The notes below the pieces were generated by a model. It did not search any database, had not been told where the DNA came from, and saw only the letters and a program-made list of their open reading frames with translations. The translations under genes were made by a program, and so were the position numbers. From a virus, in the IMG/VR virus record IMGVR_UViG_3300029985_000166, positions 1 to 22,111 of that record: DNA of 22,111 nucleotides; one strand, written 5' to 3'. Below are positions 82-16,272 of this stretch, piece by piece (the first letter of the stretch is position 1; each line of letters starts with the position of its first letter).

Positions 82-1152
82 TTAGACTCCGTCTTGGTAC
101 ACCTGGGTCGTAGTCCGTTTGAACACGACTTCGCCGATGCATCCCATGAACGCGGTTTCGTATGCAACTCCTGCGCGTGTAGTGGGGACGGTCATGACCT
201 TAGTCATCACCTGCGGGATCTTCAAGTACAAACTACGTTTTGAATTTTTGTAGTACACCGCGCGGTCCAGACCATTGCCCTGCGTGCCGACAGCCGCCGT
301 GTTACCAGTGCCTTGGCCGCTGATCCAGGGATTTGGGAGAGGGTTGATCTTAAAGGCCACGCCATGATGCGCCGCGATGCAGTACTTCTCGATATACTCG
401 ATCACGCTCATCGCGACCGGCACACCCGCGATTGCCTGCGGCTGCGTCAGCACGTTGAACTGCGTGTAAGGCACGAGCAACCGATCGGCCATGCCCTCAG
501 TCGCTGCGAAACCAGAATTGGTCAACGTCTGGGTGAGCCCAGAGTTGACGTCATTCAGAATCTCGCCCGGAGTCTTCTTGGCCCAAGTGGTAGAGCCCGA
601 AGTACCAGCCGGCACGACGTACTCATACACGGCGGGGTTGTTGATCAGTGCCGCACCACCCAGGAACCCAGCGTAAGTAACGAAGTCCAGAGCCTTGACC
701 CAGTTGGTCTCGACGCTGTTTTCATAAAGCTCCTGCAGACTGAACGGCGGAGCCTGACCGGTACGCAGGGCGAACTCCATGCGCTGGAGGTCGACGAACG
801 TAACAGTCATGCCCATGGCCCAGATGTAAGTCGCCCAGACGCCCTTCTGCACGTCAGCCTGAGCCTCGGGCAGCTCGGTGTTATTGGTGCCCTGCAGGCC
901 GAAGTACTGAGTTCCGGTCGTGGCGTAGTTGGCGCTCCACGCGCTGAGGAACTGCGGCCAACCGCCGCCGGTCTCAACGGTAATGTCGCGCGGATGGGTA
1001 ACGGCCTGAAGAGGCTCTACCAGGTCGGTGTCAATAAGTTCCAATTGGCTATTCAGGAATGCCAGACCGGAAGCGCCCGCAGCATCAAATGCCTGGGCCC
1101 TTCCGCTCGAGTATCCGTCATAGCCACGAGTGCTCTGTCGCATCTGTTTCAT
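82..1152 (-). CDS. Major capsid protein, DUF2184-like
   Basis: This 356-aa protein resembles the DUF2184 family of phage major capsid proteins, the shell subunit of the icosahedral head. The resemblance is in the N-terminal GLAFLNSQLELID segment, the central GMTVTFVDLQRMEFALRTG region and the overall length; I recognise the family from memory and did not search. The first ~23 residues are Gly/Ser/Tyr/Gln-rich and end in A21-F-D-A24, just before the conserved fold begins. That would suit an N-terminal arm removed during maturation. It is last in the visible head operon, 26 bases after the cement gene, with GAGGAG 11 nt before the ATG. It ends in TAA. Confidence 0.85.
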   Translation of the reverse strand: MKQMRQSTRGYDGYSSGRAQAFDAAGASGLAFLNSQLELIDTDLVEPLQAVTHPRDITVETGGGWPQFLSAWSANYATTGTQYFGLQGTNNTELPEAQADVQKGVWATYIWAMGMTVTFVDLQRMEFALRTGQAPPFSLQELYENSVETNWVKALDFVTYAGFLGGAALINNPAVYEYVVPAGTSGSTTWAKKTPGEILNDVNSGLTQTLTNSGFAATEGMADRLLVPYTQFNVLTQPQAIAGVPVAMSVIEYIEKYCIAAHHGVAFKINPLPNPWISGQGTGNTAAVGTQGNGLDRAVYYKNSKRSLYLKIPQVMTKVMTVPTTRAGVAYETAFMGCIGEVVFKRTTTQVYQDGV

Positions 1153-1178
1153 GGTTCTGTCGTCTCCTCGTGTCTGGG

Positions 1179-2006
1179 TTAGGCCGCGTTGCGGATCTTG
1201 AGAGTGATTTCCATGACGCTGTTGGCGTCCAGGAAACCGGTGCGCGCGACCGTGTTGGACAGCGCAATGAGGTTGCTGAAAGTGAGTACGCTGGTAGCCG
1301 TGACTGCTGTGGTCAGGCCGTTGCTGAGCACAATGGTGGTGTAAGCACCAGCTGTGCCAGTACCGCTGACGACGTAAGTGCCCGGCGCGATGCCAGGACC
1401 CGAGACCACCTGCCCAACGTACACACCAGTAAAGGTGATGCCAGTCAGCGAAGTGGCGGCAGCTGCAGCAGCCGTAATGCCGTTCAGCGTGAACAAGTCG
1501 GAAGCCGCAGGAGCGCCAATCTCCCAGTCGCCCACCGTACCAGCCGAAACAGCCGCATTGGCCACAGCGCGCGTGTATACCTGCGAGCCGGAAACAGGTG
1601 TGTTAGCTACGGCCACGTTGACCGTAGCGCTACCACGCTCCAGCACAGTCGCCATCTGGCTGGCCGCGTAGTAACCGACCTGCTGAGCACCCGGCGCGAC
1701 GTTGAAGCCGAACGGGTAAGCCAGCTGGGTCTGCACTTCACGAACGGCCACGCCTGCAAACTGCGAAGCAACCAGCCCGATGTTGGCCGTTGCAGCCGCA
1801 ATAAAGTCGGCTACGGAGTCGTAGTAGCCGCCCTGCGCGTTCTGAATAACTACGGCCGGATCACCGAAGTTGAGGTTGTTGGTACTGGTAGTGGGTGAGA
1901 ACTGGCGGGAAGGCGCGACGCGCTCACCCTGCCGGCTGATGGTGCCCGGGAATCCGAGATTCGGCCCGGTTACCGGGATCACTTGACCAAACGAGATGAC
2001 CGCCAT
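1179..2006 (-). CDS. Structural cement (gp24-like) capsid decoration protein
   Basis: This 275-aa protein has the hallmarks of phage structural cement proteins of the gp24 type: N-terminal MAVISFGQVIP, a central GYY-ASQMATVLERGS segment, SQVYTRAVANA, and a C-terminal RTGFLDANSVMEITLKIRNAA-type ending. Such proteins bind and stabilise the outer capsid lattice. Between about residues 170 and 245 there is a Gly/Thr/Val-rich stretch (GVYVGQVVSGPGIAPGTYV) that looks like an inserted beta-sandwich module relative to the shorter members I remember. Its ATG overlaps the TAA of the upstream protease/scaffold gene (TAATG), suggesting translational coupling and adjustment to capsid stoichiometry. Confidence 0.75.
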   Translation of the reverse strand: MAVISFGQVIPVTGPNLGFPGTISRQGERVAPSRQFSPTTSTNNLNFGDPAVVIQNAQGGYYDSVADFIAAATANIGLVASQFAGVAVREVQTQLAYPFGFNVAPGAQQVGYYAASQMATVLERGSATVNVAVANTPVSGSQVYTRAVANAAVSAGTVGDWEIGAPAASDLFTLNGITAAAAAATSLTGITFTGVYVGQVVSGPGIAPGTYVVSGTGTAGAYTTIVLSNGLTTAVTATSVLTFSNLIALSNTVARTGFLDANSVMEITLKIRNAA

Positions 2007-2842
2007 TATTTGCCTCCCTTACGACGCTCGTCGTAGTACTTCTGAAGCTTCGCGTTAGCGTCCGCAGTGGCGTCAGCCGCGCGTGCGATGTTATTCTGTC
2101 GAGGCAGGTCAGCGGTGCGTGCTCGCGAGCCAGCCGCGAAGCGTCCGTAGCCAGAGTCGCCAGTACGAGCACGGCTGGTGCGGCTGACACTGCTCAGTGC
2201 GGTGTTGAAGGCCGCCTTGACAGAAGCGTCATTGCACCTAGCCACGACCGGACGCAGCATGCGCAGCGTCGCTACAGCGCCATCATGGGCGGTAGCACGG
2301 TCCTTGGCTCGTTTCTTGCGGTCGTCAGCCTCTTCTTCCTCTTCGAAGTTCTCTTCGCCGCCAGGACCAACCTCTTCCTCGGCGTCGTCAGCCTCCTCCT
2401 CGTCAGGCTCCTCACCCTCACCAAGCAGTTCTTCAAGCTCGGCTGGATCGGCGTCCTCTACTTCTTCCTCTTCTTCGGCGTCCTTAGCCTCGTGCTGAGG
2501 CTCGGTCTCCTCTTCAGACAGGAAGTCATTGAGCAAATCCTTCAGGGCCTCGATATCGGCGTCCTTGCCGCGCGCGTCGAGCATCTTGTCTAGCGCGTCG
2601 TGCATGCGCCCACGCTTGTCATTGGTATGAGTCTCTTCGATCTCAGGGTCCAGGTCCTTAGCCTTGCGCTTGCGCGTGTCCTTGACCTGCCCGGTCTCCT
2701 CGATCTCGAAGTCCTCATCACGTGCCTTCTTCTTGTCCTCAGCCTCAGGCGGCGTGAGTTCTGCCAGCTTCTCAGGCTCGATGTCAGCGTCTTGTGCCGC
2801 CGCCCTCAGCCCAAGGCCCCAGATGTGTTTACGCAAATTCAT
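2006..2842 (-). CDS. Possible nested scaffold protein from an internal start
   Basis: Within the protease/scaffold gene an AAGGAG sits at 2855-2860, 12 nt before an in-frame ATG (codon 248), with an in-frame GTG one codon earlier at 9 nt. Starting here would give a 278-aa protein of only the acidic, scaffold-like half. The boundary coincides with the end of the proline-rich linker. Phage lambda does the same with C and Nu3, where the scaffold is made from the 3' part of the protease gene. Caution: the ribosome-binding-like sequence also encodes a Lys-rich run (KKEKKP), so it could be chance. Confidence 0.45.
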   Translation of the reverse strand: MNLRKHIWGLGLRAAAQDADIEPEKLAELTPPEAEDKKKARDEDFEIEETGQVKDTRKRKAKDLDPEIEETHTNDKRGRMHDALDKMLDARGKDADIEALKDLLNDFLSEEETEPQHEAKDAEEEEEVEDADPAELEELLGEGEEPDEEEADDAEEEVGPGGEENFEEEEEADDRKKRAKDRATAHDGAVATLRMLRPVVARCNDASVKAAFNTALSSVSRTSRARTGDSGYGRFAAGSRARTADLPRQNNIARAADATADANAKLQKYYDERRKGGK

Positions 2843-3583
2843 CACGGGTTTTTTCTCCTTCTTGGTTGGTAGTGCGTTAGTGGTTGACGTCACGTGCCCG
2901 GCGCTGGGCTCAGGCGGCGATGCCGCAGGCTCAGGCGGAGTAACGCACTGTGCTGTAAGATCTTCGGATTGGGCGTCGCCGATTGATACGAGGTCGCCGG
3001 CGCGTCCCTTGGGAACTACCGCCGTGTGGTTGGCGATGTAGTCACATTGGATAATACGGTCGCCATCACGGTCGATGGTAAAGTTATAGCCCAGGCTGAT
3101 GTCACGTGCCTGCTTAGTACGAACTTTACCAACTAGCGGCTCACCAGAAATGACGATGTCGGCAATTACCGGCCACTCGCCGTCTTCCAATGGTTCAGGA
3201 CCGCGGCGTGGATTCTGGATGTGACCCTTAGAATATTGGCTGAAGTTCGATGGGTCGACAAAACCAGGCGGATGGTTGTCTGTAACTGGCCGTCCGTTCA
3301 AACTGGCCAGGAACTCCGGCTTAAACACTTCGCTCGCAGGTCGATAAAGGTCGATCATCGCCGATGGATTGGTAATGTCAATGCCCAACTCTTTAGCTAG
3401 CTCTTGTGGAAGGTCGCGCACAGAATATTCTTGCCAGCCAGTTCTGGCGATGGGGCAGCCGACAATTAACAGGCTGCCGTCTGGCATCTCGCTGATATGC
3501 TCGGACAGAGGACTGGCCAGGTAGCCGTGTGCCGTCTTGGTCGCCCGTACTATCTCAGGCTCGTCCTGAAGTTCTGTGCTCAT
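2006..3583 (-). CDS. DUF2213-like putative prohead protease fused to an acidic scaffold-like region
   Basis: This 525-aa protein has two halves. Residues ~1-205 resemble DUF2213, a phage family thought to be a capsid-maturation serine protease. Candidate catalytic residues are H104 (DNHPP), S163 (RDISLGY) and H186 (NHTAVV), a His/Ser/His set as in assemblin-type proteases; the triad is inferred. After a Pro-rich linker (215-247), residues 248-525 are highly charged with long Glu/Asp runs (~355-420) and a basic, Ala/Arg-rich end, as in scaffolding proteins. AxD motifs are scattered through this half (AQD 263, ARD 287, AKD 308, 366 and 426, AHD 432). The gene overlaps its upstream neighbour by ATGA and the cement gene by TAATG. 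Confidence 0.75.
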   Translation of the reverse strand: MSTELQDEPEIVRATKTAHGYLASPLSEHISEMPDGSLLIVGCPIARTGWQEYSVRDLPQELAKELGIDITNPSAMIDLYRPASEVFKPEFLASLNGRPVTDNHPPGFVDPSNFSQYSKGHIQNPRRGPEPLEDGEWPVIADIVISGEPLVGKVRTKQARDISLGYNFTIDRDGDRIIQCDYIANHTAVVPKGRAGDLVSIGDAQSEDLTAQCVTPPEPAASPPEPSAGHVTSTTNALPTKKEKKPVMNLRKHIWGLGLRAAAQDADIEPEKLAELTPPEAEDKKKARDEDFEIEETGQVKDTRKRKAKDLDPEIEETHTNDKRGRMHDALDKMLDARGKDADIEALKDLLNDFLSEEETEPQHEAKDAEEEEEVEDADPAELEELLGEGEEPDEEEADDAEEEVGPGGEENFEEEEEADDRKKRAKDRATAHDGAVATLRMLRPVVARCNDASVKAAFNTALSSVSRTSRARTGDSGYGRFAAGSRARTADLPRQNNIARAADATADANAKLQKYYDERRKGGK

Positions 3584-5229
3584 ACGGGCCTCGGGAGTCG
3601 TGAGTCACGAGCTTGAACTTTCTCGCCCTTCTTAACTCGTGCCAAGTTTTGCTCCTCCATCTTCAGCTGCGCACGGTAGAAGTGAATATCGGCGTCAGTT
3701 TCCTCGTCACCGCGTTTAGCGCGTTGCTTCTCTGCCACCTTGATTTGCTCTTTGTAATAATGAATGTTTGCTTCGCAGTCAGCTGGTACAAGATCGCTGT
3801 CCTTCCCAAATGACCGCTTGAAACCCTCAGGGTCTTTCTTCCCATAAGCTGCCGCTACCGCCTCGGTCTTAGACCTGTATAGCGCAGTGCGTGTTTCTAC
3901 ATCACGTTTAGCAGACTCTAGTGACCTGAACGTTCGTGGCATCGCACTGCCGGTGCGGCATACTGGGACCGATTCCCACTCACCCTTTTCACCAGGTTTG
4001 GTCAGATCTTCGACAGAACCCCAGGTGTAACCTTTGTCCCAAAGTACGAAGAAACCTTTAGCTCTCGACTTCCACTCTGGGCCTGAGTCCTTCCCAAATG
4101 ACCGCTTGAAACCCTCAGGGTCTTTCTTCCCATAAGCTGCCGCTACCGCCTCGGGCGTGCGCAGTGCGGCGCTGGTGGTCAGTCCGTACTTGCCCTTCGG
4201 CTTCGGGTCGGTCCACTCGGTGTCTTTGACGGGGACAGGCTTGAGGTCGCCCACTGCGCCATGGCCGAGAACGCTGTCCTTCCCAAATGACCGCTTGAAA
4301 CCCTCAGGGTCTTTCTTCCCATAAGCTGCCGCTACCGCCTCGGTCTTAGACCTGTATAGCGCAGTGCGTGTTTCTACATCACGTTTAGCAGACTCTAGTG
4401 ACCTGAACGTTCGTGGCATCGCACTGCCGGTGCGGCATACTGGGACCGATTCCCACTCACCCTTTTCACCAGGTTTGGTCAGATCTTCGACAGAACCCCA
4501 GGTGTAACCTTTGTCCCAAAGTACGAAGAAACCTTTAGCTCTCGACTTCCACTCTGGGCCTGAGTCCTTCCCAAATGACCGCTTGAAACCCTCAGGGTCT
4601 TTCTTCCCATAAGCTGCCGCTACCGCCTCGGGCGTGCGCAGTGCGGCGCTGGTGGTCAGTCCGTACTTGCCCTTCGGCTTCGGGTCGGTCCACTCGGTGT
4701 CTTTGACGGGGACAGGCTTGAGGTCGCCCACTGCGCCATGGCCGAGAACGCGGTCTTTGGCTGGTTTGTTGGGCTGCCCCGGCAAAGGCCCGATGCCACG
4801 ACGCTCCATCTCAAGCAGTACTTGCAGCGCCATTTTCGGCATGTAGTTCTGAAGATACTTCCTATAGGCGGCGCGCAGCTTGTCGTCCGGCCAATCTTTG
4901 TAGATCGCTGGATCGGCATCTTTAGCTTTCTCACGATCCTTATACGTGGCAAGTCTAAGTGCGCCTTCCGTGAAGGCGCCAACATTACCATCAAGAAACT
5001 TCACGCGATAGTGAGTGCCGTTAAAACCGAGCACTACTCCGACGCCAGTATCAGCAGGTTGATCGACTGCCACTACCGCGTCGCCACGACCAAACTTTGT
5101 CCCGTCGTCCTTCCCCTTCGCCTTACTCATCGCAATCGCCACGGCTTGGTCCTCCTTCTTTCCTGCGCGGCGTTCAACCGCGATGTTATGTGAAATCGTT
5201 GACTGAGAACTGCCTTCACGTAATGGCAT
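3580..5229 (-). CDS. Repeat-bearing head-module protein with duplicated 159-aa unit
   Basis: This is a 549-aa protein of unknown function. Residues 1-40 match a short N-terminal motif common in phage head-region proteins (MPL-EGSSQ...AGKKEDQAVAIAMSKAKG). Residues ~45-95 look like an SH3-like beta-barrel (GRGDAVVAVDQ...GTHYRVKFLDGNVG). AKD motifs follow at 102 and 157. Residues 161-319 and 320-478 are an exact tandem duplication. Each unit contains two copies of a ~22-residue segment ending in SFGKDS. The C-terminus is helical with two similar repeats (NIHYYKEQIKVAEKQ and DIHFYRAQLKMEEQN), then ARDS. GGGAG lies 8 nt before the ATG; the stop overlaps the next gene by ATGA. Probably virion-associated, by context. 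Confidence 0.7.
   Translation of the reverse strand: MPLREGSSQSTISHNIAVERRAGKKEDQAVAIAMSKAKGKDDGTKFGRGDAVVAVDQPADTGVGVVLGFNGTHYRVKFLDGNVGAFTEGALRLATYKDREKAKDADPAIYKDWPDDKLRAAYRKYLQNYMPKMALQVLLEMERRGIGPLPGQPNKPAKDRVLGHGAVGDLKPVPVKDTEWTDPKPKGKYGLTTSAALRTPEAVAAAYGKKDPEGFKRSFGKDSGPEWKSRAKGFFVLWDKGYTWGSVEDLTKPGEKGEWESVPVCRTGSAMPRTFRSLESAKRDVETRTALYRSKTEAVAAAYGKKDPEGFKRSFGKDSVLGHGAVGDLKPVPVKDTEWTDPKPKGKYGLTTSAALRTPEAVAAAYGKKDPEGFKRSFGKDSGPEWKSRAKGFFVLWDKGYTWGSVEDLTKPGEKGEWESVPVCRTGSAMPRTFRSLESAKRDVETRTALYRSKTEAVAAAYGKKDPEGFKRSFGKDSDLVPADCEANIHYYKEQIKVAEKQRAKRGDEETDADIHFYRAQLKMEEQNLARVKKGEKVQARDSRLPRPV
3799..3866 (-). repeat. 68-bp direct repeat, copy 1 of 4
   Basis: Four identical 68-bp copies occur at 3799-3866, 4087-4154, 4276-4343 and 4564-4631. 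Two lie inside each 477-bp unit, 288 bp apart. They encode EAVAAAYGKKDPEGFKRSF-GKDS in frame, at module borders. They could act as homologous recombination seeds for copy-number change. Confidence 0.9.
4087..4154 (-). repeat. 68-bp direct repeat, copy 2 of 4
   Basis: Identical to 3799-3866. It sits between the module beginning VLGHGAVGDL and the module beginning GPEWKSRAKG, within the downstream 477-bp unit. Confidence 0.9.
4276..4343 (-). repeat. 68-bp direct repeat, copy 3 of 4
   Basis: Identical to the other copies. It lies at the junction of the two 477-bp units, so its SFGKDS tail is followed directly by VLGHGAVG of the second unit. Confidence 0.9.
4564..4631 (-). repeat. 68-bp direct repeat, copy 4 of 4
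   Basis: Identical to the other copies. It is the first copy met in the reading direction of the gene, inside the first 159-aa unit. Confidence 0.9.
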
Positions 5230-5233
5230 TGGC

Positions 5234-5569
5234 CTAGCTCCCTGTCGCGATGTTCAAGATCGCCTGCGGAGTCCCGGCAGCGCCGAACGGGCTGTTACCG
5301 CCCTGCGTAATGCCGGCCAGGTAGGTGGCGGTGCCAATGCCCAGGTAAGTCGGCACTGGACCGGGTACGATACACACTCCGGCGGCAACCGTAGCGACGA
5401 CGGTGTTACTGCCCAGGGCTACGAACACCGGAACTCCGGACAGGTTAAGCAAGCGCACGGTGGCGTCGCTAGCGGGCGTGCCAGGCAGGGCGACGCGTGT
5501 ACTAGGCGAGCCGAACGAAGTAGTCAGTGCGGCGTCGACAGTGAAACTGGGCTGTGGTGTTGCGGCCAT
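5234..5569 (-). CDS. Small beta-rich putative virion protein
   Basis: This 111-aa protein is rich in Ala, Gly, Thr and Val, with almost no charged residues. The pattern VRLLNLSGVPVFVALGSNT...VVATVAAGVCIVPGPV...ATYLAGITQ resembles small beta-sandwich proteins often encoded beside phage head genes as decoration or head-fibre components. That is a similarity from memory, and I assign no firm function. It lies between the papain-like gene and the duplicated gene, and ends in TAG inside the next gene's ribosome binding site. GAGG lies 11 nt before the ATG. Confidence 0.65.
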   Translation of the reverse strand: MAATPQPSFTVDAALTTSFGSPSTRVALPGTPASDATVRLLNLSGVPVFVALGSNTVVATVAAGVCIVPGPVPTYLGIGTATYLAGITQGGNSPFGAAGTPQAILNIATGS

Positions 5570-5588
5570 GGTCTTAGTACCTCTGTCC

Positions 5589-7028
5589 TTAGACTAGTTC
5601 TAACTGTTTCGGCAAATACTCTTTACCATCTGAAAGTGCTACCCAGGCGATATCAGTGCTGACCACTTTTAATTCTTGACCAGTGGCTTTGACACGAACC
5701 TTGGCATTCTTCTTTAGCTGGGCCCAGGTGGGGTAGTCCTGCACATGCGGGGTGGCTTTAGGCTTTGGACCACCCCACTCTCGTGAGTGTCCTTTGAGGT
5801 TCTTCAATGCACCGGGAATGTTCTTCGGGTCGTCTAAGAAACCGTCCTTCGCTGAGTCCATCACTACGTCCAGCGCACAATAAAGCCGAGAGCGGTCGAG
5901 GGCGGGCTTGGCACTTAGGTGTGAACCACCGTGGTGAATCAATGCATCCACATCTTTTCCGCAAAGTTTACACGCCCAAGGTTTCCACCGATCTGCCTCA
6001 AATTTATGCGGAGTCTTTGCTGCACGGCGCTCTTCGGGTGTAGTGTCCTTCGCCCTGTGCCGAACTGCCGAGTCCGCGCACTCCGGGCAGATAACCTTGC
6101 CACCGCGCTCCAGAACGTCGTCGCCCATCAGACCCACACCGCACGCTTGGCACTTCGTGACTCCGTCTCGGGGATCCGTATCCTTCGCCCTTCCCGTCTT
6201 CTTATCTAGTTCTCTGATAGCCGTGTCAATCAACCGCTCACGCTGCTCTACTGTGCGCCGCAGGAATTCTTGTACATCGATGCCCACTACATCAAGCAAC
6301 TCGCTGAATGGGTAACGGTCCAGACGACTAGTGAAGAAGCCGTCTTTTGCTCTCCCAGTATGACGCAGTTTATCGATCACCGTGTGAGCCATCGTGAGCG
6401 CCGCATCTAGGTAGGCGGCTGCTTGTCCCCAATTATGTAGTCCGGCGTTCTTATCAGCCGTGGCCAGATACTTATATGCCGATGCTACTTTGGCAGCCCA
6501 AAATGGCTGGTCATCTGTCCTGGTCTTAGCAAGCAGACGCTCGGCTTCTTTGACCAACTCCGTTGTTGGCTGACGCAGGGCACGGTAAGCAGGTTCGCCA
6601 CCGCTGTGACGCACCGGACTATTCTTTAGTTCGTCATGCTTGGACTTCAGCGCTTCAGCCTCGGCGCGAGAGTCCTTAGCAACTGGAAGTAACAGTCCGT
6701 AATACTTAGGCTTTGCCAAGCCTTGCCCGTCATTCAATTCTGGCGGATGAGGGTCCCAGACTATTTGGCCATCTAGGCCTACGACGGCGTGCATGCCACC
6801 ACGCGGACTGATACCAGTTATAACGTGGTATCCAGTTGGCGCTACATCGCCTATCGGCACCTCCTGATAATGCAGTCCGTACTTAGCCAGGAAGGTGTCG
6901 ATGCCAGGGTCCTCATTAGATTCACCAAAGTCCGGAACTTGCTTTTCCTTCAAATTCAGAATGGAAGCCAATGAAGCACGGAAGCATGTGCCATGCTCTC
7001 CGGTGCGGGATTGCGTGACCGGCCGCAT
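5589..7028 (-). CDS. Multidomain protein: papain/C39-like N-terminus plus zinc-binding modules
   Basis: A 479-aa protein. Residues 1-115 fit a small papain-like fold seen in phage and plasmid proteins: Cys15 in GTCFRASLASIL, His80 in RGGMHAVVG and Asp92 in IVWDPHP form a plausible Cys/His/Asp triad. A helical segment follows (~120-275), then a zinc ribbon (C293-X2-C296, C314-X2-C317), a second metal-site motif (H341-X11-C353-X2-C356-X8-H365), and a C-terminal SH3/KOW-like stretch (~440-479). Five AKD tripeptides (117, 227, 281, 326, 393) fall between these modules. Its ATG overlaps the portal stop (TAATG). Peptidase or amidase activity is inferred only. It may be a processed virion protein delivered with the DNA. 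Confidence 0.7.
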   Translation of the reverse strand: MRPVTQSRTGEHGTCFRASLASILNLKEKQVPDFGESNEDPGIDTFLAKYGLHYQEVPIGDVAPTGYHVITGISPRGGMHAVVGLDGQIVWDPHPPELNDGQGLAKPKYYGLLLPVAKDSRAEAEALKSKHDELKNSPVRHSGGEPAYRALRQPTTELVKEAERLLAKTRTDDQPFWAAKVASAYKYLATADKNAGLHNWGQAAAYLDAALTMAHTVIDKLRHTGRAKDGFFTSRLDRYPFSELLDVVGIDVQEFLRRTVEQRERLIDTAIRELDKKTGRAKDTDPRDGVTKCQACGVGLMGDDVLERGGKVICPECADSAVRHRAKDTTPEERRAAKTPHKFEADRWKPWACKLCGKDVDALIHHGGSHLSAKPALDRSRLYCALDVVMDSAKDGFLDDPKNIPGALKNLKGHSREWGGPKPKATPHVQDYPTWAQLKKNAKVRVKATGQELKVVSTDIAWVALSDGKEYLPKQLELV

Positions 7029-9313
7029 TACTTAACCTCCGGGCTGCAGGGCTTCCTGTAATCACGATTCTTTAGCCAGGACTTGAAGTCTTCCACGCTC
7101 ATCGGTGTCCAATCCAGCAGGACATCCTCAGCGCGGTGATGACCGGCATAGAAGGCCGCATTTACAGCCTCGTATGACGGGTAAAAGACGAAGACCTTCG
7201 ACTCATCGAATTTACTTCGATCGCCTAAGACAGCCTGGTCAAACACATAAATCCATTTGGCTGCAGGATCAGGCCCGACCGCTATATCGAGTGAATCTCC
7301 ATCGGCACCAGGAATACCCTTGAAGTACCCGTAGTCGTAAGGCATGACTGTGGACCAAGACTTGCCGTTCGACGTCGCGCCACTTCGCACTTCACCTTTG
7401 CGGGTCTCAATCACGACGGGCAGGCCGTGAATGGTCATCGTCTTTCGCGCTGAGCCGTCAGCATCGTGTGCGATGCCGCGACCTCTTACATACGCCAAGC
7501 ACTTCGCATACGGCACCTTGAATTGCTCTGCGTAAAACTGCAGATTATTCAGCGCGCCTTTCTTAACTAACACTTCACCTTCCCAAGTGCCCCGCAGCGC
7601 TTTGGGAATGGTGTCGGCCTCATTTTCGCAGGCTTCTATCCAAACCATCTCGGGCGACATTCCAGCGTCATGCGCCTTAGCCTCAGGAGCCACTTTCTTG
7701 GCCCCTGGGAGCCCCACAGCGCTCTCCTTAGGGTTAGGCGAGCCGTTACCCTCAACCGGCACCGGCTTGACGCCCTGGACGGCCTCTTTGCCGACTTTAT
7801 CCTCTTCTTTAATCACCTTAGCCGGGCCGCTAGTCGGACTCAGCCCGCCGCCTTCACTCTCAGGCCCGAAAAGCCCTTCGCCTAGCTCACCCTCAGAACT
7901 AACTTCATCACTGAGCCTGTCGATGTCTTCGTCCGTGAGGTTGGTGCCGAAACCGTTGATGTCGCTGGCTTGCTTGATTTCCATACCGGCCTTGCGCGGC
8001 GAAAACAACCCAGAATTGAGGCACACCACTACTGAGTCCACTGTGCCCTTAGCTAAATCTGCCTTCTCCTTTTCATCAAGTACACGAATGGAGGGGAAGT
8101 TCAGTTCCATGTCGTCAGGCACTTCGCCCAACTCCGAAGCCATGATGACGGGAAATAGCTTCTCCAGCGCGGGGCGCAGAGTAGCGTCGGCCTCTGTGGC
8201 CACTGTCTTCTCGTAGATGCGCTCATCGCCCTCTCCAGAGTTACCCAGCCCGTTGAATAGTCTACCCCATAGTAGCGATACTGGCATCTTAGCTGCGCCC
8301 GCCATCTGCAACTGGAACATCTGAATAAGCTCGGCCAACCCAGAGAAGCTGTATTGCACGTTGCTCAGCTCTCCGTCCTGCGGAAGCATAACCAGGGACT
8401 GATTCGACAGCATCTGGTTGACGGGCGCCATGCGCTCGGCAAACTGCTGAGCTGCCTTCTGACTGATGCCTACGCCGCTAAGAATCTGCGCAAGCTCAGG
8501 CATGCGCATTCCGATAAGGTTGGCGCGGTAGCTCAGTGATAGAGCATTTGCGCTGACGTTATCGTAACTCATCAGAGCCTGCATTACCGGCGCGAGAACA
8601 GAGATACCCCAGCCTTGGTAGACTGAATTTTCGGGTTCAGGCATCTTCGGTCCGCAGAAGCGCAGGATGCGGCTACTGTGCACGTGCATGGTCTCGCTGG
8701 AACTCTTAGCATGCACGTCGTAGAACTCCGGCAGCCCCACGTCCAGCGGACTATCGAAATCGTCGCAAACGTCACCAGCCGGTGATATGCCGCTCCAGCG
8801 GTCAAATACTACAAGACCTTTATAAGCCCCGATGCCGACCTTATCCAGATCTAACGGTTTGTCGAGTTCATGCTCGTGGCCCTTGACTACAATCAATGCA
8901 CCAGCGCCGCCAAACAAGCGGCCCCAGGTGAGTGCCTCTAGTACCTTGCTCTTCGTGTTGGTCTTTGTAACCTTCCGCTTGAACTTGGCCAGATCTTCAG
9001 GCTTAGTCTCTCCCAGAATAGTGGGCCAAGTCTTCACGATGTCAGCGGCTGGTGCCTCGACTACACGGCGGGCCAGCCAGCTACCTTCAAAGAGGCTCAC
9101 CAGCTGCCAAAAGTTAAGTGTCAGTCGTGTAAGCGGGTAGTCAGTACCATTCTCAAGACTGGAGGATCCAACGCCGGTGCGCGCCAAAAGATTCTGGAAG
9201 GCGTCGTTAGCTTCGGCACCACCTGCGAGGCCCAACTTCTGACCAGCTACATCAGCTATATCAGCTACAGCCTTAGAAACCAGGGACGGCCTGTTACGTT
9301 TTCTATTTTTCAC
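7028..9313 (-). CDS. Portal protein (DUF1073-like) with C-terminal pyrophosphatase-like domain
   Basis: This 761-aa protein is longer than a normal portal (~450-550 aa). Residues ~60-470 resemble the DUF1073 portal family (FEGSWLARRVVEAPAADIVK, a WGRLFGGA motif, PVSLLWGRLFNGLGNSGEGDE), which forms the dodecameric DNA channel at one capsid vertex. A low-complexity linker follows (470-545). AHDA occurs at 547 and again at 615, bracketing a ~65-residue helical segment. Residues 619-761 resemble the InPase-like domain of phage polyvalent proteins: MPYDYGYFKG...GADGDSLDIAVGP. D671-G-D673-S-L-D676 is close to the family I pyrophosphatase signature DxDPxD. The GTG start is 14 nt after GGAAGG; a CTG two codons earlier has better spacing. 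Confidence 0.8.
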   Translation of the reverse strand: MKNRKRNRPSLVSKAVADIADVAGQKLGLAGGAEANDAFQNLLARTGVGSSSLENGTDYPLTRLTLNFWQLVSLFEGSWLARRVVEAPAADIVKTWPTILGETKPEDLAKFKRKVTKTNTKSKVLEALTWGRLFGGAGALIVVKGHEHELDKPLDLDKVGIGAYKGLVVFDRWSGISPAGDVCDDFDSPLDVGLPEFYDVHAKSSSETMHVHSSRILRFCGPKMPEPENSVYQGWGISVLAPVMQALMSYDNVSANALSLSYRANLIGMRMPELAQILSGVGISQKAAQQFAERMAPVNQMLSNQSLVMLPQDGELSNVQYSFSGLAELIQMFQLQMAGAAKMPVSLLWGRLFNGLGNSGEGDERIYEKTVATEADATLRPALEKLFPVIMASELGEVPDDMELNFPSIRVLDEKEKADLAKGTVDSVVVCLNSGLFSPRKAGMEIKQASDINGFGTNLTDEDIDRLSDEVSSEGELGEGLFGPESEGGGLSPTSGPAKVIKEEDKVGKEAVQGVKPVPVEGNGSPNPKESAVGLPGAKKVAPEAKAHDAGMSPEMVWIEACENEADTIPKALRGTWEGEVLVKKGALNNLQFYAEQFKVPYAKCLAYVRGRGIAHDADGSARKTMTIHGLPVVIETRKGEVRSGATSNGKSWSTVMPYDYGYFKGIPGADGDSLDIAVGPDPAAKWIYVFDQAVLGDRSKFDESKVFVFYPSYEAVNAAFYAGHHRAEDVLLDWTPMSVEDFKSWLKNRDYRKPCSPEVK

Positions 9314-9334
9314 TTGCAGCAGACCGTCCTTCCT

Positions 9335-9559
9335 TTAGACTTCAGATTTACTTCTTACAAGGTCATCGTCTGTAAGCCAGATGACACGTTCTTCTGTGTA
9401 TGAAATTGGCTGTGTGTCGCCATCAGCATTTTTGATGAACGCCCACAAAAGCCTTTTGTCCGCCGTAAACATTTCATCGAGAATACTGGCATCCAGCTCC
9501 ATTCCGTTAAACACCAGTATGTCAGACTTCTGCACCGCCAACCGCCGTCGCGTAGACAT
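9335..9559 (-). CDS. Hypothetical protein, 74 aa
   Basis: A small protein of unknown function, basic at the N-terminus (MSTRRRLAVQKSD) and acidic at the C-terminus (WLTDDDLVRSKSEV). I place the start at 9559 because GGAG lies 7 nt upstream. An in-frame ATG at 9607 would add 16 basic residues but has only a weak ribosome binding site. It lies between the exported protein and the portal gene, so it probably belongs to the head operon. It could be an assembly or connector factor, but nothing in the sequence shows that. Confidence 0.6.
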   Translation of the reverse strand: MSTRRRLAVQKSDILVFNGMELDASILDEMFTADKRLLWAFIKNADGDTQPISYTEERVIWLTDDDLVRSKSEV

Positions 9560-9613
9560 AAAGCGTCTCCGTCTAATAGGTTGAAGGGTTAAGCCCAGAC
9601 GGCGCATGCGAAC

Positions 9614-10396
9614 CTACTGCTGTACATAGCTAAGTATGCCCGCCACACCGGCCGCGCTAGCCGTAGCACACACAGCGTTAGACACTGGAGTCGATGCGAA
9701 CGTGGTGCTAAAGCCGCCTACGGTAAACAATCCGTTAGCCGCCATCGGCACTGCGCCAGTAAGCGCCGTAGTGCCTGTACCGCAAGCCGAACCAGTGCCG
9801 TAATTGAGCGTGAGCGTAGTGGCGGCAGTAGTATTGCCGACGGCCAATCCGCAGACATACACCTTCTTGCCAGTCGACAGAGCCACCAACTGCGTTGCAG
9901 ACGAGCCAGTCAAGTTCACAACCACGCTGGACTTCGGCGAGATAAGACAAGGGTCCTGGGTCTCAGTGCCGCTTGGGCTAAAGCTGATGCTCAGGTTGCC
10001 GGCTGTGGGGTATGCGCTGGAGCAGGCGTATGTGGCCTGGTAGTTGTCGCCCACAAGTACCGACGGCTGCACGATGATCTGCTGCGTACCAGTAGCAGGA
10101 GTGAACGCGACAGTGGCCACGGCTGCAGTAGCAGCTCCGCCCGCGTTAGACACATATTTAAGCGCGACAGTGCATCCACTGGGTGACCCAGTGATGCCGG
10201 TCTCGATGATGTTCAGCACGCCAGTACCGCTGAAGTTGGGCAGCCGCACAATGCCGCTAGCGGCCGTAGCCGTGGCGGACTGTTGCACAAAGAACGTAAC
10301 GCCCGACTGGGTTGTGTAAGTCTGGGCCAAAGTGGACAACGGCGCGAGCACCGCCGCCAGGACGCTAAAAATGGATGCGAGACTCTTAAACTTCAT
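9614..10396 (-). CDS. Sec-exported beta-rich protein within the head operon
   Basis: This 260-aa protein starts with a classic Sec signal peptide: MKFK, a hydrophobic core of about 16 residues (LASIFSVLAAVLAPLS), then TLAQ with likely cleavage after Ala or Gln near residue 25. The rest is Ser/Thr/Gly/Ala-rich beta structure in two parts (~27-150 and ~155-260) with several cysteines, fitting disulfides outside the cytoplasm. The second half has KVYVCGLAVG and YGTGSACGTGTTALTG, a pattern I associate with beta-sandwich proteins in phage genomes. Export would place it in the periplasm or on the surface, odd for a gene between MuF and portal. AGGAG lies 9 nt before the ATG. It may be a lysogenic-conversion or exclusion factor, or a decoration protein. 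Confidence 0.75.
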   Translation of the reverse strand: MKFKSLASIFSVLAAVLAPLSTLAQTYTTQSGVTFFVQQSATATAASGIVRLPNFSGTGVLNIIETGITGSPSGCTVALKYVSNAGGAATAAVATVAFTPATGTQQIIVQPSVLVGDNYQATYACSSAYPTAGNLSISFSPSGTETQDPCLISPKSSVVVNLTGSSATQLVALSTGKKVYVCGLAVGNTTAATTLTLNYGTGSACGTGTTALTGAVPMAANGLFTVGGFSTTFASTPVSNAVCATASAAGVAGILSYVQQ

Positions 10397-10438
10397 TGCA
10401 CCGTTCTCCTGTGTATTGGTTAGAGGTTGATGATACGG

Positions 10439-11299
10439 TCACGCCGCTACCTTGCTGGCAAAGCGCGAAATAAACTCTTGTTTCGTATAGTGTCTGATTG
10501 TTCCTTGGCTGTAGACGCGGGCTGGAAAATGAATGTCTTCGAGCGACAGCACCGGATATACGACACATCTACAGTTTGGGCACCCACCCGGTCCATAATT
10601 ACCCAGCGTCGACTTCTCACCAGCCAGTGCCTCAGGATTAGGTAAATCGTTCCAAGAAAAGATTACTTTATCCATGAGCTTATGTGAGGGCCGCACTCGA
10701 ACGTCCTCGGAAGTGCCCCACTCCGCAAAGTCAATGTTCAGCTCTTCACACCGCGCCATTGTCAAGGCGAGACTTGTCTTTGCCGATTCTGTTCTCGAAA
10801 TTAAGTTCACTCGACTGCGCACGAGCTCCGGGAAGCGCGCTTTCATCATCTTGGCTATAGTTCCAGGCCGCGCACCGCGCTGCTGAGCCTTAGTGACTTC
10901 GTCAGTCAGTCGCTGAGCAGCCTCAAGTGGGATGGAGGAAATAAGTTGGGCATTCTGCTGAATGATGCGACGAACCGCTTCGCCCGTCGCACCCTGCATT
11001 TCCTTCTCAAGCAGTTTGAAGAGTTTTTGGCTCTTCATGCTTCGAGCCGCGGCTTCGCGCCAGGTTTTCTGATTACCTACTGCAACCCACTTACACATTC
11101 GCGCTGCAAGGGTCTCGCTAGCGCGCTGAATGTCTTCTTGCTGGCTGCGCTCGACAAGTTCCGCCAGCCACTCATCAAGTGTCTGATCAGGACGCTTTGG
11201 CGTGAGTACACGATGGACGATCTGCTTGATACCTTGCTCGTACGCTTTCTCTAATCGCTGAGTAGGTGAGAATTTTTTAGGCGGAAGTACCTTAGCCAC
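10439..11299 (-). CDS. MuF / SPP1 gp7-like minor head morphogenesis protein
   Basis: Long helical N-terminal half, then a segment typical of phage Mu gpF / SPP1 gp7 minor head proteins: RVNLISRTESAKTSLALTMA, GTSEDVRVRPSHKLMD, and a cysteine motif GGCPNCRCVVYPVL near the C-terminus. Such proteins enter the capsid in a few copies bound to the portal and take part in head assembly or DNA exit. I choose the GTG at 11299 (286 aa): GGAGAG lies upstream, and it overlaps the preceding gene's stop (GTGGCTAA). An in-frame ATG at 11389 lies deep in the neighbour's coding region. The order TerL-MuF-portal is unusual, since MuF normally follows the portal gene. It ends in TGA. Confidence 0.8.
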   Translation of the reverse strand: MAKVLPPKKFSPTQRLEKAYEQGIKQIVHRVLTPKRPDQTLDEWLAELVERSQQEDIQRASETLAARMCKWVAVGNQKTWREAAARSMKSQKLFKLLEKEMQGATGEAVRRIIQQNAQLISSIPLEAAQRLTDEVTKAQQRGARPGTIAKMMKARFPELVRSRVNLISRTESAKTSLALTMARCEELNIDFAEWGTSEDVRVRPSHKLMDKVIFSWNDLPNPEALAGEKSTLGNYGPGGCPNCRCVVYPVLSLEDIHFPARVYSQGTIRHYTKQEFISRFASKVAA

Positions 11300-11489
11300 A
11301 GTACTCTCTCCATTCGCGTGCCGAGTCAAGCAACTCTTTCGTGGTCCAGTCGTCGCGGTGGAACTGACGCGGCAGACGATCCAGTGCATTCACATGTTCA
11401 ACCAGCGTCTCAAGCGCGAACAGAGCATCGCTAAGCCGCACGGCGAGATTGGCGTCTATCTCGATTTTGATTGCGTCGCAGTTGGCCAT
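11292..11489 (-). CDS. Hypothetical protein, 65 aa
   Basis: A small, acidic, mostly helical protein (MANCDAIKIEIDANLAVRL...LFALETLVEHVNALDRLP). I do not recognise it. It lies directly upstream of the MuF-like gene and overlaps its GTG start by 8 bases, so the two are probably co-translated. GAGG sits 11 nt before the ATG. Confidence 0.6.
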   Translation of the reverse strand: MANCDAIKIEIDANLAVRLSDALFALETLVEHVNALDRLPRQFHRDDWTTKELLDSAREWREYCG

Positions 11490-11555
11490 GTGAATTACTA
11501 CCTCGCAGGCTCGGCTTCATTCTTACGATTAAGCTCAAAATATTTGCGAGTCTTT

Positions 11556-11774
11556 TCAGGAGTAAGTGGACCGCGGATCGCGAAATTCCTCTAAGTCCTT
11601 CCCAGCCCTTCGATCCATCACGGCGTCCAAAGCGCGGTGCAATTGAGCACGGTCGGTGGCTTTACCAGTCAGCTTAGCAAGGCGTGCCTCAGCGCTCTTA
11701 CGAATGTGCGATGGTGTTCGCGGGTCAGCGATTAACCTACGCAATGTTCCTTCTTCACCGATTCTGCTTGCCAT
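11556..11774 (-). CDS. Hypothetical protein, 72 aa, with ALDxVMD motif
   Basis: A small basic helical protein of unknown function. I use the ATG at 11774 because AGAGG lies 7 nt upstream; the in-frame GTG just before it is too close. Its start overlaps the stop of the preceding gene (TGATG). The C-terminal half (TDRAQLHRALDAVMDRRAGKD) resembles a segment near residue 378 of the papain-like protein (LDRSRLYCALDVVMDSAKD), and less closely one in the scaffold (MHDALDKMLDARGKD). This suggests a shared helical docking motif among head-module proteins. Confidence 0.6.
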   Translation of the reverse strand: MASRIGEEGTLRRLIADPRTPSHIRKSAEARLAKLTGKATDRAQLHRALDAVMDRRAGKDLEEFRDPRSTYS

Positions 11775-12157
11775 CACTTCACCTCTCTACTCGCCTTACG
11801 CATCGCGGCATAATACCGATCACTTAACCACACGTACCTAAAGATCCCGTCGCGGCTCTGCATCCCCATCTTCTGCTTCAGCAGATGCCCCTTTACCAAC
11901 TTCAGGTGGAAGACGCCCTCAACTGCGTCCGGAACGGCCTCGCGCAACTTCTCAAGGATGAGGTTCATGTACTCGCCGGGTCGCATGCGCTGCCTCCAAG
12001 CAAGGCCAATCTCCTGCGCCGTGACGATGATACAAACGGGCGTCTCGCCGTCGATAACGGGGACACGCATTGTCTGCTGTCCGCCGGTAGCCGGGTCAGG
12101 CTTGTGCATCCGCTCGCCCCAGGGGCGGGGAGTCTCTAACTCTCGTGCTGAAGCCAT
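11774..12157 (-). CDS. Hypothetical protein, 127 aa
   Basis: I do not recognise this protein. It has a polar N-terminus (GERMHKPDPATGGQQ), a mixed alpha/beta middle (VPVIDGETPVCIIVTAQEIGLAWRQ) and a basic C-terminus ending RYVWLSDRYYAAMRKASREVK. GAGGAG 9 nt before the ATG overlaps the end of the upstream gene, 6 bases away. Its position between TerL and MuF suggests a virion assembly or accessory role. Confidence 0.65.
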   Translation of the reverse strand: MASARELETPRPWGERMHKPDPATGGQQTMRVPVIDGETPVCIIVTAQEIGLAWRQRMRPGEYMNLILEKLREAVPDAVEGVFHLKLVKGHLLKQKMGMQSRDGIFRYVWLSDRYYAAMRKASREVK

Positions 12158-12163
12158 CGCTCT

Positions 12164-12496
12164 TTACTCCTCTTCCTCTACTACGGCGGTTACTGAACCA
12201 TCGCGATTCACGACTACGTCAGGAGCAGTAGCGTCTTCGTCAAGCATAGCCTGCAGTTCTTCGAGCGTCGGAAGGTGCGCTTCATACGACTTGAACGCGG
12301 CCAACGCATCGTCCAGGTGGATGCACTCTTTCAGGTTCGGACAAGGATCACTGAGTGCTGTCAAAGCCACTTTACCGTTGCAGTAGTCATTGCCAGCCAC
12401 AGCGTCGTACAGGATACCCACGTACGGTAGGCCATAACTGGGTACGACCAGCACCTTGTCACCGTTCTGTGCTGCTCTGCCATTCTTATAGTGCAT
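12164..12496 (-). CDS. Conserved phage hypothetical protein with SH3-like start
   Basis: A 110-aa protein of a type I have seen in many phages: MHYKNGRAAQNGDKVLVVP, then YVGILYDAVAGNDYCNGKVAL and NLKECIHLDDALAAF. The N-terminal ~50 residues look like a small beta-barrel, and the C-terminus is acidic (VVEEEE). Its function is unknown. AAGGAG sits 6 nt before the ATG. A strong stem-loop (12521-12564) lies just upstream of this ribosome binding site, so expression may depend on read-through. Confidence 0.7.
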   Translation of the reverse strand: MHYKNGRAAQNGDKVLVVPSYGLPYVGILYDAVAGNDYCNGKVALTALSDPCPNLKECIHLDDALAAFKSYEAHLPTLEELQAMLDEDATAPDVVVNRDGSVTAVVEEEE

Positions 12497-12520
12497 TTCG
12501 ATCTCCTTGCAAGTAAAATG

Positions 12521-12564
12521 CCGCGACGACCCGTGGTATGGGAGGTTGGCTAAGGTCGTCGCGG
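12521..12564 (-). terminator. Intergenic stem-loop, perfect 11-bp stem
   Basis: CCGCGACGACC and GGTCGTCGCGG form a perfect 11-bp stem around a 22-nt loop. On the minus strand it is followed by CATTTTACTT, then the AAGGAG of the next gene. It could be a partial terminator that lowers expression of downstream genes, or an RNA-stability element. No room is left for a promoter between it and the next start codon. Confidence 0.5.
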
Positions 12565-12574
12565 ATGGACAAAC

Positions 12575-12703
12575 TTATGCGGCTGCGATAATAGTGTGAA
12601 GCTGCTGCACAACTTCTATAGTGCCGTCAGGAAGTACGTGGACTGGCACACGTGATATTTCGTTCAGTTGCCGTTCCAATTCAGCACGTCGTTCTTCGGA
12701 CAT
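12575..12703 (-). CDS. Small protein, 42 aa
   Basis: A short gene with AAGGAG 9 nt before ATG. It encodes 42 residues: a charged helix (MSEERRAELERQLNEISR), then a short strand-like part (VPVHVLPDGTIEVVQQLH) and AAA. It is flanked on both sides by stem-loops (12521-12564 and 12740-12782). The good ribosome binding site and gene-like composition support it. Its function is unknown; a small regulator or assembly peptide is possible. Confidence 0.6.
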   Translation of the reverse strand: MSEERRAELERQLNEISRVPVHVLPDGTIEVVQQLHTIIAAA

Positions 12704-12730
12704 CGTTCAAATCTCCTTGCGTGAGATGTG

Positions 12731-12782
12731 TAAAAAGAACCGCGCGGCTCAGACGGCTAAGCCGCTCCCTAGAACCACGCGG
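12731..12782 (-). terminator. GC-rich stem-loop followed by a T-run, after the 88-aa gene
   Basis: An imperfect GC-rich hairpin (outer CCGCG/CGCGG, inner CGGCT/AGCCG) is followed on the minus strand by TTCTTTTTA. This is the best intrinsic terminator candidate in the window. It lies 16 bases after the stop of the 88-aa gene and only ~28 bases before the next start codon, so it probably attenuates rather than ends the operon. Confidence 0.55.
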
Positions 12783-12798
12783 AGGAGGAAAGGTTTAG

Positions 12799-13065
12799 CT
12801 ACCAGCGTCTAGGCTTGGGCTTGTACTGCATGAGATCGTAGTTCTTGGACTCTGGCTCGGAGGGCTTCGTTGCCTCATACCAGGCAAGCAATAATCCGAG
12901 CAGCGCGGCCACCGTAAGCGGCTTTACGTCTTTGGCCTTCACTGGCAGATCGTGCAGGTCGCTCGACCTCGGGTACCGGCACGCTTTGCAAATTTCCGGG
13001 GCATCAGGCTCAGATACGAACTTATGCCGACCGTAAGGCCACCATTCACGATTCTTTCTGGACAC
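12799..13065 (-). CDS. Small protein with HX11CX2CX8H motif and hydrophobic segment
   Basis: An 88-aa protein starting at GTG with AGGAGG 7 nt upstream. Residues 14-38 hold H14-X11-C26-X2-C29-X8-H38, a likely zinc site with the same spacing as residues 341-365 of the papain-like head protein. AKD follows at 44-46. Residues ~49-63 form a hydrophobic stretch (PLTVAALLGLLLAWY), perhaps a short membrane helix or buried helix. The C-terminus is basic (YKPKPRRW). Unknown function. It is the first small gene after TerL. Confidence 0.65.
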   Translation of the reverse strand: MSRKNREWWPYGRHKFVSEPDAPEICKACRYPRSSDLHDLPVKAKDVKPLTVAALLGLLLAWYEATKPSEPESKNYDLMQYKPKPRRW

Positions 13066-15067: not shown

Positions 15068-15097
15068 CACGGCTTGCCTCGTCCGTGCGTGGCGGAC
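15068..15097 (-). promoter_or_regulatory. Two mutually exclusive hairpins upstream of terS
   Basis: CACGG at 15068-15072 can pair with CCGTG at 15083-15087, or GTCCG at 15081-15085 can pair with CGGAC at 15093-15097. The two stems share bases, so only one can form. They end just before the terS ribosome binding site. A switch controlling terS translation is possible but unproven. Confidence 0.3.
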
Positions 15098-15099
15098 CT

Positions 15100-15157
15100 G
15101 CTCAACCTGACGAAGCGACTCCGCTTCAAACTGACTCAAAAGTCAGCGGTGTTGAGC
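15100..15157 (-). ncRNA. Three-way-junction RNA leader element upstream of terS
   Basis: An outer 7-bp stem (15100-15106 with 15151-15157, GCTCAAC/GTTGAGC) encloses two 6-bp hairpins with 4-nt loops (15112-15127, GAAGCG/CGCTTC; 15131-15146, CTGACT/AGTCAG). All stems are perfect. Transcribed with terS it would fold as a compact three-way junction in the leader. It could be a regulatory leader, an antitermination RNA of the HK022 put kind, or a DNA element such as a packaging site; the sequence cannot decide between these. Confidence 0.4.
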
Positions 15158-15188
15158 TACTCAGATTCCGCTCCCTAAACACAGAAAT

Positions 15189-15215
15189 GGGCACGAGTCG
15201 CTAAGACCCGTGCCC
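15189..15215 (-). terminator. 10-bp hairpin in the control region
   Basis: GGGCACG/CGTGCCC (7 bp), one mismatch, then GTC/GAC around a 5-nt loop. On the minus strand it is followed by ATTTCTGTGTTT, a moderately T-rich tail. It lies downstream of the possible gene at 15465-15755 and upstream of terS, so it could terminate the former. Confidence 0.45.
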
Positions 15216-15464
15216 GATTAGCTGTACTTACCCGGCAAACCAATCTTAAGAAGGTTCCGGCTTGGCAACAGCGGCCAACGCTTGGCCAAATAGTGCGTGA
15301 CTTCCAGGCCCGTTGCTAGCAGCCGTCGTATAAACGAAGTTGTCACGCAAACTTACTTTTAAATATGCGTAGCCAAGAGGCTCACTAGACGCGTCCAGCC
15401 ATGTACAAGGCCCACTGCCGACTTAGCCACTCTTCGCTAACTGCAGGCTGCTCCGCCGTGGGAG

Positions 15465-16236: not shown

Positions 16237-16272
16237 TAAGTCATCGTCAAATTTTCGAAAGGACTTTGTTTT

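Follow-up and report, generated by a model that had tools for sequence, protein, structure and literature searches.

Why does a short motif ending in Asp recur in the head proteins of a virus, and at the borders between their modules? The question is raised by IMG/VR virus record IMGVR_UViG_3300029985_000166, whose positions 1 to 22,111 (22,111 bases, the whole stretch analysed, hereafter the window) carry on the minus strand the genes for TerS, TerL, small proteins, a MuF-like protein, a portal with a C-terminal inorganic pyrophosphatase (InPase), a 479-amino-acid (aa) protein, a 111-aa protein, a 549-aa protein, a 525-aa fusion of a DUF2213 domain with a scaffold, a cement protein and a capsid protein of family PF09950 (Table 1). 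An earlier note on this DNA had drawn attention to A-[KRHFQ]-D motifs in several of these proteins and had proposed cleavage after the Asp during head maturation. Comparison with relatives makes it very probable that the scaffold-fused DUF2213 protein acts as a serine protease that cuts after Asp at [RK]-A-x-D↓[SA] (the arrow marks the predicted cut) in the scaffold, the capsid arm, the portal tail and the 479- and 549-aa proteins, here called candidate cargo polyproteins.

An Asp-terminated motif in head proteins

The positions listed earlier are correct: AKD at residues 117, 227, 281, 326 and 393 of the 479-aa protein; AKD at 308, 366 and 426, AQD at 263, ARD at 159 and 287 and AHD at 432 of the scaffold fusion; AKD at 102 and 157 and ARDS at 540 of the 549-aa protein; AKD at 44 of an 88-aa protein, AHDA at 547 and 615 of the portal and AFDA at 21 of the capsid protein. 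ARD159 is unlikely to be a site, being part of the folded protease domain and next to ISLGY, the motif of the catalytic serine. Composition-preserving shuffles of each protein bear out the statement that fewer than one AKD is to be expected in each, giving 0.32 for the 479-aa protein, which holds five (p<0.001), 0.37 for the scaffold, which holds three (p 0.006), and 0.53 for the 549-aa protein, where the excess taken singly is not significant (two motifs, p 0.11); the wider set A[KRHFQ]D occurs seven times in the scaffold against 1.1 expected (p<0.001). The four GKDS of the 549-aa protein, also put forward at the time, are present but not independent, because they belong to four copies (100% identity) of a 68-nt unit within an exact 477-bp tandem duplication. 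Either a recent event or a fault of the assembly could account for the duplication, and contig L001, whose capsid is 100% identical to that of the window, starts inside it. TerL, which had been described as free of the motif, lacks AKD and holds one ARD.

Relatives were collected by scanning viral contigs with the capsid, portal and scaffold, which yielded 97 loci (48 clusters), the order of the genes being shared by most of them. No motif was chosen beforehand: each of the 400 X-x-Y pairs was counted and compared with its number in shuffled sequences. A-x-D came first of the 400 pairs in the scaffolds (44 homologues; 580 vs 269 expected, z 21.7), in the polyproteins upstream of the scaffold (199 vs 97, z 11.6) and in the papain-like 479-aa family (81 vs 41, z 6.5); it was among the strongest pairs in the portals, and it still ranked first with shuffling confined to 20-residue windows. 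There was no enrichment in 292 tail-region proteins (354 vs 385 expected) or in the cement, MuF and TerL proteins of the relatives, and A-x-E was not enriched in polyproteins (128 vs 115) and depleted in scaffolds (182 vs 273). One automatically picked "polyprotein" (L075) is a glycosyltransferase and no true member, which dilutes the signal and does not create it. The over-representation of A-x-D is real and far beyond chance.

The motif first proposed is real, and its family-wide form is A-x-D with [RK] before it and [SA] after it: the extended motif is common to the polyproteins, the 479-aa family, the scaffold C-termini and the portal tails, often with Lys at P2, and the tail proteins are without the preferences at P4 and P1'. 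G-x-D, considered as an equal motif, was rejected for its weak enrichment, and the GKDS sites are for that reason not counted as strong.

Module borders, the predicted DUF2213 protease and the residue at P3

The idea that the sites sit between recognisable modules is supported by several lines of evidence, and the comparison of homologues that the earlier note had asked for came out in its favour. A-x-D stands immediately before the InPase in all 16 InPase-bearing portals (4.3 expected), and it is kept there with preceding linkers that differ in length and content. Modules are exchanged among polyproteins, the 479-aa family, portal tails and other genes, and the ends of such shuffled matches fall within 5 residues of A-x-D 163 times against 102 expected (z 6.5), the controls K-x-D, S-x-D and A-x-K being near 0 at the same borders. 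In the AlphaFold (AF2) model of the 479-aa protein, three low-confidence gaps contain one AKD each, and both AKD 326 and AKD 393 lie within a longer stretch of this kind (Table 1). Two homologues that end after the papain-like domain are without the border A-x-D, so this site appears only where a further module follows.

The exchanged modules are themselves diverse. The portal-tail module between A-x-D sites is a zinc ribbon in L025, and the place of the window's InPase tail is taken by an ADP-ribosyltransferase domain in L072:398-3235 and by a type IB topoisomerase together with an InPase in L073:2255-5518. A Pfam-unannotated module that starts with (S/A)LPxGLxxGExVLVNGKxLTV is found directly after A-x-D in polyprotein homologues (for example L067:5151-7493) and also in portal tails.

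The gene next to these proteins had been taken for a putative prohead protease, and structure prediction agrees. The AF2 model of the DUF2213 domain, made from 30 sequences, has a predicted local distance difference test (pLDDT) score above 90 across nearly all of its core, and VIA-align placed T4 gp21 (5JBL) first (Z 12.4, 142 residues, root-mean-square deviation 3.3), followed by the proteases of cytomegalovirus (HCMV, Z about 5) and Kaposi herpesvirus. Residues H104, S163 (in S-x-G-Y) and H186 are invariant in 30-33 homologues, and they follow one another as the His-Ser-His triad does in herpesvirus proteases, at roughly similar distances. The protease is fused to the scaffold, and the cement and capsid genes follow. 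The predicted model thus makes it well supported that DUF2213 is a prohead protease of the gp21/assemblin type. The family matches 537 phage records, and the titles and abstracts of papers on DUF2213 point to no cleavage data.

The residue that such a protease would read at P3 differs between clades. In a sister clade of 39 dereplicated DUF2213 phages, which includes Acinetobacter Ab105-1phi, Klebsiella GZ7, Elizabethkingia EKP1 and Burkholderia BgManors32 (a few rows of this set are other cultured DUF2213 phages), T-x-D is the top pair in scaffolds (352 vs 73 expected, z 35.9) and A-x-D is depleted (72 vs 133); the capsids of this clade carry T-x-D↓[SAG], mostly T[IV]D↓S, immediately before the conserved body in 33 of 33. 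Ala holds P3 in 28 of 31 window-clade capsids, and A21-F-D of the window capsid is the counterpart of the sister clade's T[IV]D↓S. In a third clade, around Vibrio phages, the scaffolds favour T-, V- and S-x-D, and Thr is found in 26 of 33 capsids. The linked change of capsid and scaffold motifs is expected of a shared protease and otherwise hard to explain. In a quick tree, whose root is not fixed, the window clade and the Pbunaviruses, which are also of the Ala type, are separated by clades of the Thr type, and therefore P3 has probably switched more than once. Clades with A-x-D, T-x-D or T/V/S-x-D scaffolds were seen among DUF2213 phages L110-L269, and many capsid sites of the V-clade have Asp at P1', vs Ser/Ala elsewhere.

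Structural evidence comes from the Pseudomonas phages E217 and Pa193 (Pbunavirus), which have the portal-InPase, MuF, DUF2213 scaffold (gp23 in E217), cement and capsid genes in the same order as the window. Order in the E217 capsid protein sets in at residue 66, and in the authors' view residues 1-65 may be either cleaved off or disordered (PMC10329688); the deposited chain starts at residue 66 too, and the sequence at this point reads SAMD64↓S65N66. The capsid model of Pa193 likewise begins at residue 66 (PMC11042391), and in published liquid chromatography-mass spectrometry data the first 93 residues of its portal were not found. The E217 portal reads VAMD72↓S73, and A-x-D↓S is thus present at the N-termini of both capsid protein and portal of this phage; the readings in BcepF1 are QAFD↓S (capsid) and FAMD↓S (portal). 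Taken together, the capsid order in E217 and Pa193 and the covariation of the motifs agree; they point to cleavage after Asp, as had been proposed, and suggest that capsid and scaffold may be cut at a common short motif. Residues 286-326 of Pa193 gp24, a putative scaffolding protein, remain as a pentameric helical hairpin at the five-fold vertices (PMC11042391); by its length and gene order gp24 appears to be the DUF2213 protease-scaffold fusion (E217 gp23, 477 aa, L098:11679-13112).

A cargo helix, the proposed mechanism and its alternatives

A second recurring element, overlooked in the earlier note, is a helix with the consensus [DR]RRxRLHRALDxV[LM]D. It occurs in the 479-aa family and widely among further proteins, whether at the N-terminus, at the C-terminus or in between. 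The conserved scaffold helix RRxxMHDALDxxLD has the same core, and a profile comparison of the two with hhalign gave 96.4% (E 1.1e-9). The helix matched 53 times in 1171 proteins vs 0.15 expected, 22 times in scaffolds and 31 in others, and the window has three such helices (in the scaffold, the 479-aa protein and a 73-aa protein). A-x-D lies within 20 residues of the helix in 22 of 30 distinct cargo copies, often on both sides, and the helix itself contains A-L-D. Used as the sole query against whole records, the helix brought up additional proteins, among them a 498-aa protein in which it is present three times; when the helix itself is left out, the proteins found in this way contain 31 A-x-D vs 14.0 +/- 3.4. 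The LHRALD helix is probably a tag for targeting to the head, which would make use of the contact formed by the scaffold itself; since it usually lies beside predicted cut sites, and often between them, the proposal is that it is removed afterwards.

The mechanism that we propose begins with the cargo precursors, which would join the prohead core at least partly through the RRxRLHRALDxVLD helix that resembles the RRxxMHDALDxxLD of the scaffold. The scaffold-tethered DUF2213 protease would then turn active in the closed prohead, where it would cut the scaffold into peptides, remove the first 23 residues of the capsid protein, release the modules of the portal tail, the pyrophosphatase among them, and dice the 479- and 549-aa candidate cargo polyproteins into separate domains. 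Scaffold fragments and tags would leave the head, the folded modules would remain, and the freed domains would be ejected into the host with the DNA. As a whole, this amounts to a cargo-loading code in which a scaffold-mimicking helix and A-x-D borders lead to prohead entry, dicing by an Asp-specific protease of the gp21 fold and delivery to the host, with a DUF2213 family that reads Asp at P1 and a clade-specific P3 (Ala, Thr or Thr/Val/Ser) followed by capsid, scaffold and cargo; we hold this full scheme to be somewhat better than an even guess.

Three other explanations have to be considered. The motifs might be a by-product of composition, in that A-x-D would arise by chance in long, disordered linkers where Ala, Lys and Asp abound, and both linkers and scaffold are indeed acidic, charged and Ala-rich; yet the excess survives shuffling within 20-residue windows (z 11.0 and 19.3), A-x-E, A-x-K and K-x-D are not enriched at borders or overall, and in the sister clade Thr stands in the place of Ala in scaffold and capsid alike. 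A compositional or low-complexity origin was rejected on the global and local shuffles and on this Ala/Thr switch, and its chance of being right is negligible. Asp followed by Ser or Ala is often found at the start of helices. A-x-D↓[SA] might then be a binding or helix-capping motif, for docking on scaffold, capsid or DNA, and many of the sites do precede predicted helices, but the motif sits at domain borders and not at fixed helix positions, its form matches the A-x-E↓S of SPN3US, the gene cluster contains a gp21-like protease, the E217 capsid order starts right after AMD↓S and that of Pa193 at the same residue. A motif that serves binding and not cleavage is accordingly improbable. Somewhat less remote, and still unlikely, is that DUF2213 trims the capsid and scaffold alone and that the 479- and 549-aa proteins stay undiced, with inherited copies of the motif, or are merely degraded. 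The phages studied so far cut mainly scaffold and propeptides, and their cargo usually loses one terminus (PMC9026906, PMC10052503); here, however, the polyproteins and portal tails share the extended motif, at the borders of exchanged modules and before the InPase, and the papain-like border site comes and goes with the module that follows it.

Several observations weigh against cleavage after Asp as proposed here, or narrow it. The E217 cement protein holds several A-x-D and its Pa193 homologue is modelled from residue 1, and A-x-D alone is not sufficient for cleavage. There is no A-x-D directly before the InPase in the E217 and BcepF1 portals. G-x-D is mildly enriched at module borders too, and a first, cruder test of borders, confined to matches between polyproteins, gave A-x-D no significance (p 0.12), since the majority of these matches extend across sites; significance was reached with shuffled modules. 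The Leu-Pro at P2'/P3' in polyproteins is probably owed to one recurring module and not to the protease. Foldseek returned no significant match for the protease model, gp21 having surfaced in a re-alignment of Foldseek candidates, and some cargo proteins are without a recognisable helix. For the window phage itself, cleavage is inferred from comparative evidence.

Known systems and remaining features

The closest known proteases are T4 gp21 and the herpesvirus assemblins, with which DUF2213 shares the predicted fold, the His-Ser-His order, adjoining scaffold and capsid genes and a short motif, here predicted to be read at P3 and P1; its fusion to the scaffold is as in herpesviruses. The specificity of gp21 is L/I-x-E, with Glu at P1, whereas DUF2213 phages would have Asp there. 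Cuts follow L/I-x-E in T4, S/A-x-E in phiKZ and A-x-E in SPN3US (PMC9026906, PMC10052503), and in the tag of T4 IPIII an Asp at P1 blocks processing (PMC9026906); the Glu specificity of these phages is not seen here, A-x-D being enriched instead. SPN3US gp245 and phiKZ gp175 resemble the present case in Ala at P3, Ser at P1', several sites per propeptide and the trimming, predicted in the present case, of capsid and portal (PMC10052503, PMC5694885), and differ from it in reading Glu for Asp and in cuts that mostly remove N-terminal propeptides and do not fall at the borders of many modules.

On the side of the cargo, the simplest reading is that the LHRALD helix plays the part of the T4 capsid targeting sequence without being confined to the N-terminus. 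Like that sequence, it is a short helix-like peptide that would bring cargo to the core and then be removed by the head protease. It departs from the T4 sequence, an N-terminal propeptide of 10-20 residues, in being found mid-protein or C-terminally too and in multiple copies; predicted cut sites usually lie close to it, on one side or on both, and it resembles a helix of the scaffold. Polyvalent proteins (Iyer et al., 2017; PMC5512222) offer another parallel, being multi-domain and module-shuffling, with InPase-portal fusions and predicted injection, and the proteins described here likewise hold several unrelated domains per chain that are shuffled between relatives. Processing of polyvalent proteins was assigned to an internal metallopeptidase domain (PMC5512222), and is here assigned to the prohead protease at A-x-D; a peptidase domain for self-processing was absent from Pfam scans of the window proteins and 20 relatives, in which divergent ones could be missed. 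E217 and Pa193 differ from the window in having no large cargo polyproteins beside the portal.

The earlier note knew of no comparable description, and a literature search, with most subscription journals outside it, found none of A-x-D or T-x-D cleavage by DUF2213 or of head polyproteins cut between modules. The system is best read, from its sequences, as a new variant of prohead proteolysis, Asp-specific and with diced cargo polyproteins; this would amount to a viral-polyprotein strategy in phage heads and suggests that phages may load several proteins into one head by means of viral-style polyproteins. A substrate code for the widespread, formally uncharacterised DUF2213 family would let head-processing sites be read from the sequences of many phages, therapeutic Pseudomonas phages included, and a candidate short capsid-directing tag makes the entry of diverse cargo into phage heads directly testable.

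Table 1. Positions in the window of the genes, domains, predicted cleavage sites and helices discussed.
Feature	Position	Strand	Evidence or remark
Major capsid protein, 356 aa	82..1152	-	PF09950, E 6e-32
Capsid A21-F-D↓AAGAS, predicted loss of N-terminal arm	1084..1092	-	Alignment; P3 Ala in most clade capsids (28/31)
Scaffold part, residues 200-525, acidic	2009..2986	-	A-x-D at 263, 308, 366, 426, 432, 502
Scaffold helix KRGRMHDALDKMLDA, residues 323-338, counterpart of cargo helix	2570..2617	-	H328, D329, A330, D332, D336 invariant in 8 homologues
Scaffold site A308-K-D	2654..2662	-	[AGS][KR]D in 8/8 aligned homologues
DUF2213 head maturation protease domain, residues 18-199 of 525-aa fusion	2987..3532	-	PF09979, E 1e-31
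549-aa candidate polyprotein	3580..5229	-	Homologues (482-975 aa) are mosaics of modules; as many as 17 sites
Exact 477-bp tandem duplication within 549-aa gene	3799..4752	-	Contains all four FGKDS
549-aa site A157-K-D↓R	4753..4761	-	
549-aa site A102-K-D↓A	4918..4926	-	
479-aa candidate polyprotein	5589..7028	-	Papain-like domain 1-116 (invariant C15, H80, D92), helical modules, zinc ribbon, LHRALD-type helix
Cargo helix DRSRLYCALDVVMDS, then A393-K-D↓G, 479-aa protein (377-394)	5844..5900	-	
479-aa site A326-K-D↓T, after zinc ribbon	6045..6053	-	AF2 low-confidence stretch 322-449
479-aa site A281-K-D↓T, before zinc ribbon	6180..6188	-	AF2 gap 281-285
479-aa site A227-K-D↓G	6342..6350	-	AF2 gap 225-237
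479-aa site A117-K-D↓S, after papain-like domain	6672..6680	-	AF2 gap 117-122; A-x-D here in many homologues
Portal (PF06381), putatively cleavable tail with InPase module	7028..9313	-	Pfam
InPase module (PF18823) of portal tail	7070..7447	-	E 6e-29
Portal site A615-H-D↓ADGS, border immediately before InPase module	7463..7471	-	16/16 portals
Portal site A547-H-D↓AGMSPEMVWIEAC, border of first tail module	7667..7675	-	
Cargo helix of 73-aa protein, ATD↓RAQLHRALDAVMDRRAGKD	11607..11657	-	
88-aa site A44-K-D↓V	12928..12936	-	Single motif, weak evidence alone

Among cultured phages, AB434P2 of Agathobaculum is one of the nearest to the window clade by its capsid. A scan of the genome collection with the scaffold found no relatives, the 479-aa protein used as a single-sequence query had no match in viral_contigs, and Foldseek with its AlphaFold model found no significant fold; matches of its papain-like part in cultured phages are limited to N-terminal stretches, and Pfam scans gave no domain above the cut-off in typical polyproteins.

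Outside the head genes, some 1.2 kb between TerS and the divergent primase side (window 15069-16272) hold no obvious gene, with a G+C content dropping towards 0.43, and are likely a control region between two transcription units. On the early-gene side, two small proteins (19590-19907 and 21807-22109) have twin-arginine-like N-termini (RRTFISSLVALG and RRTFLALTSAF), which are unusual in phage. A 189-aa protein at 19904-20473 carries an HD-hydrolase-like motif (AAYWHDHCKLLEY).

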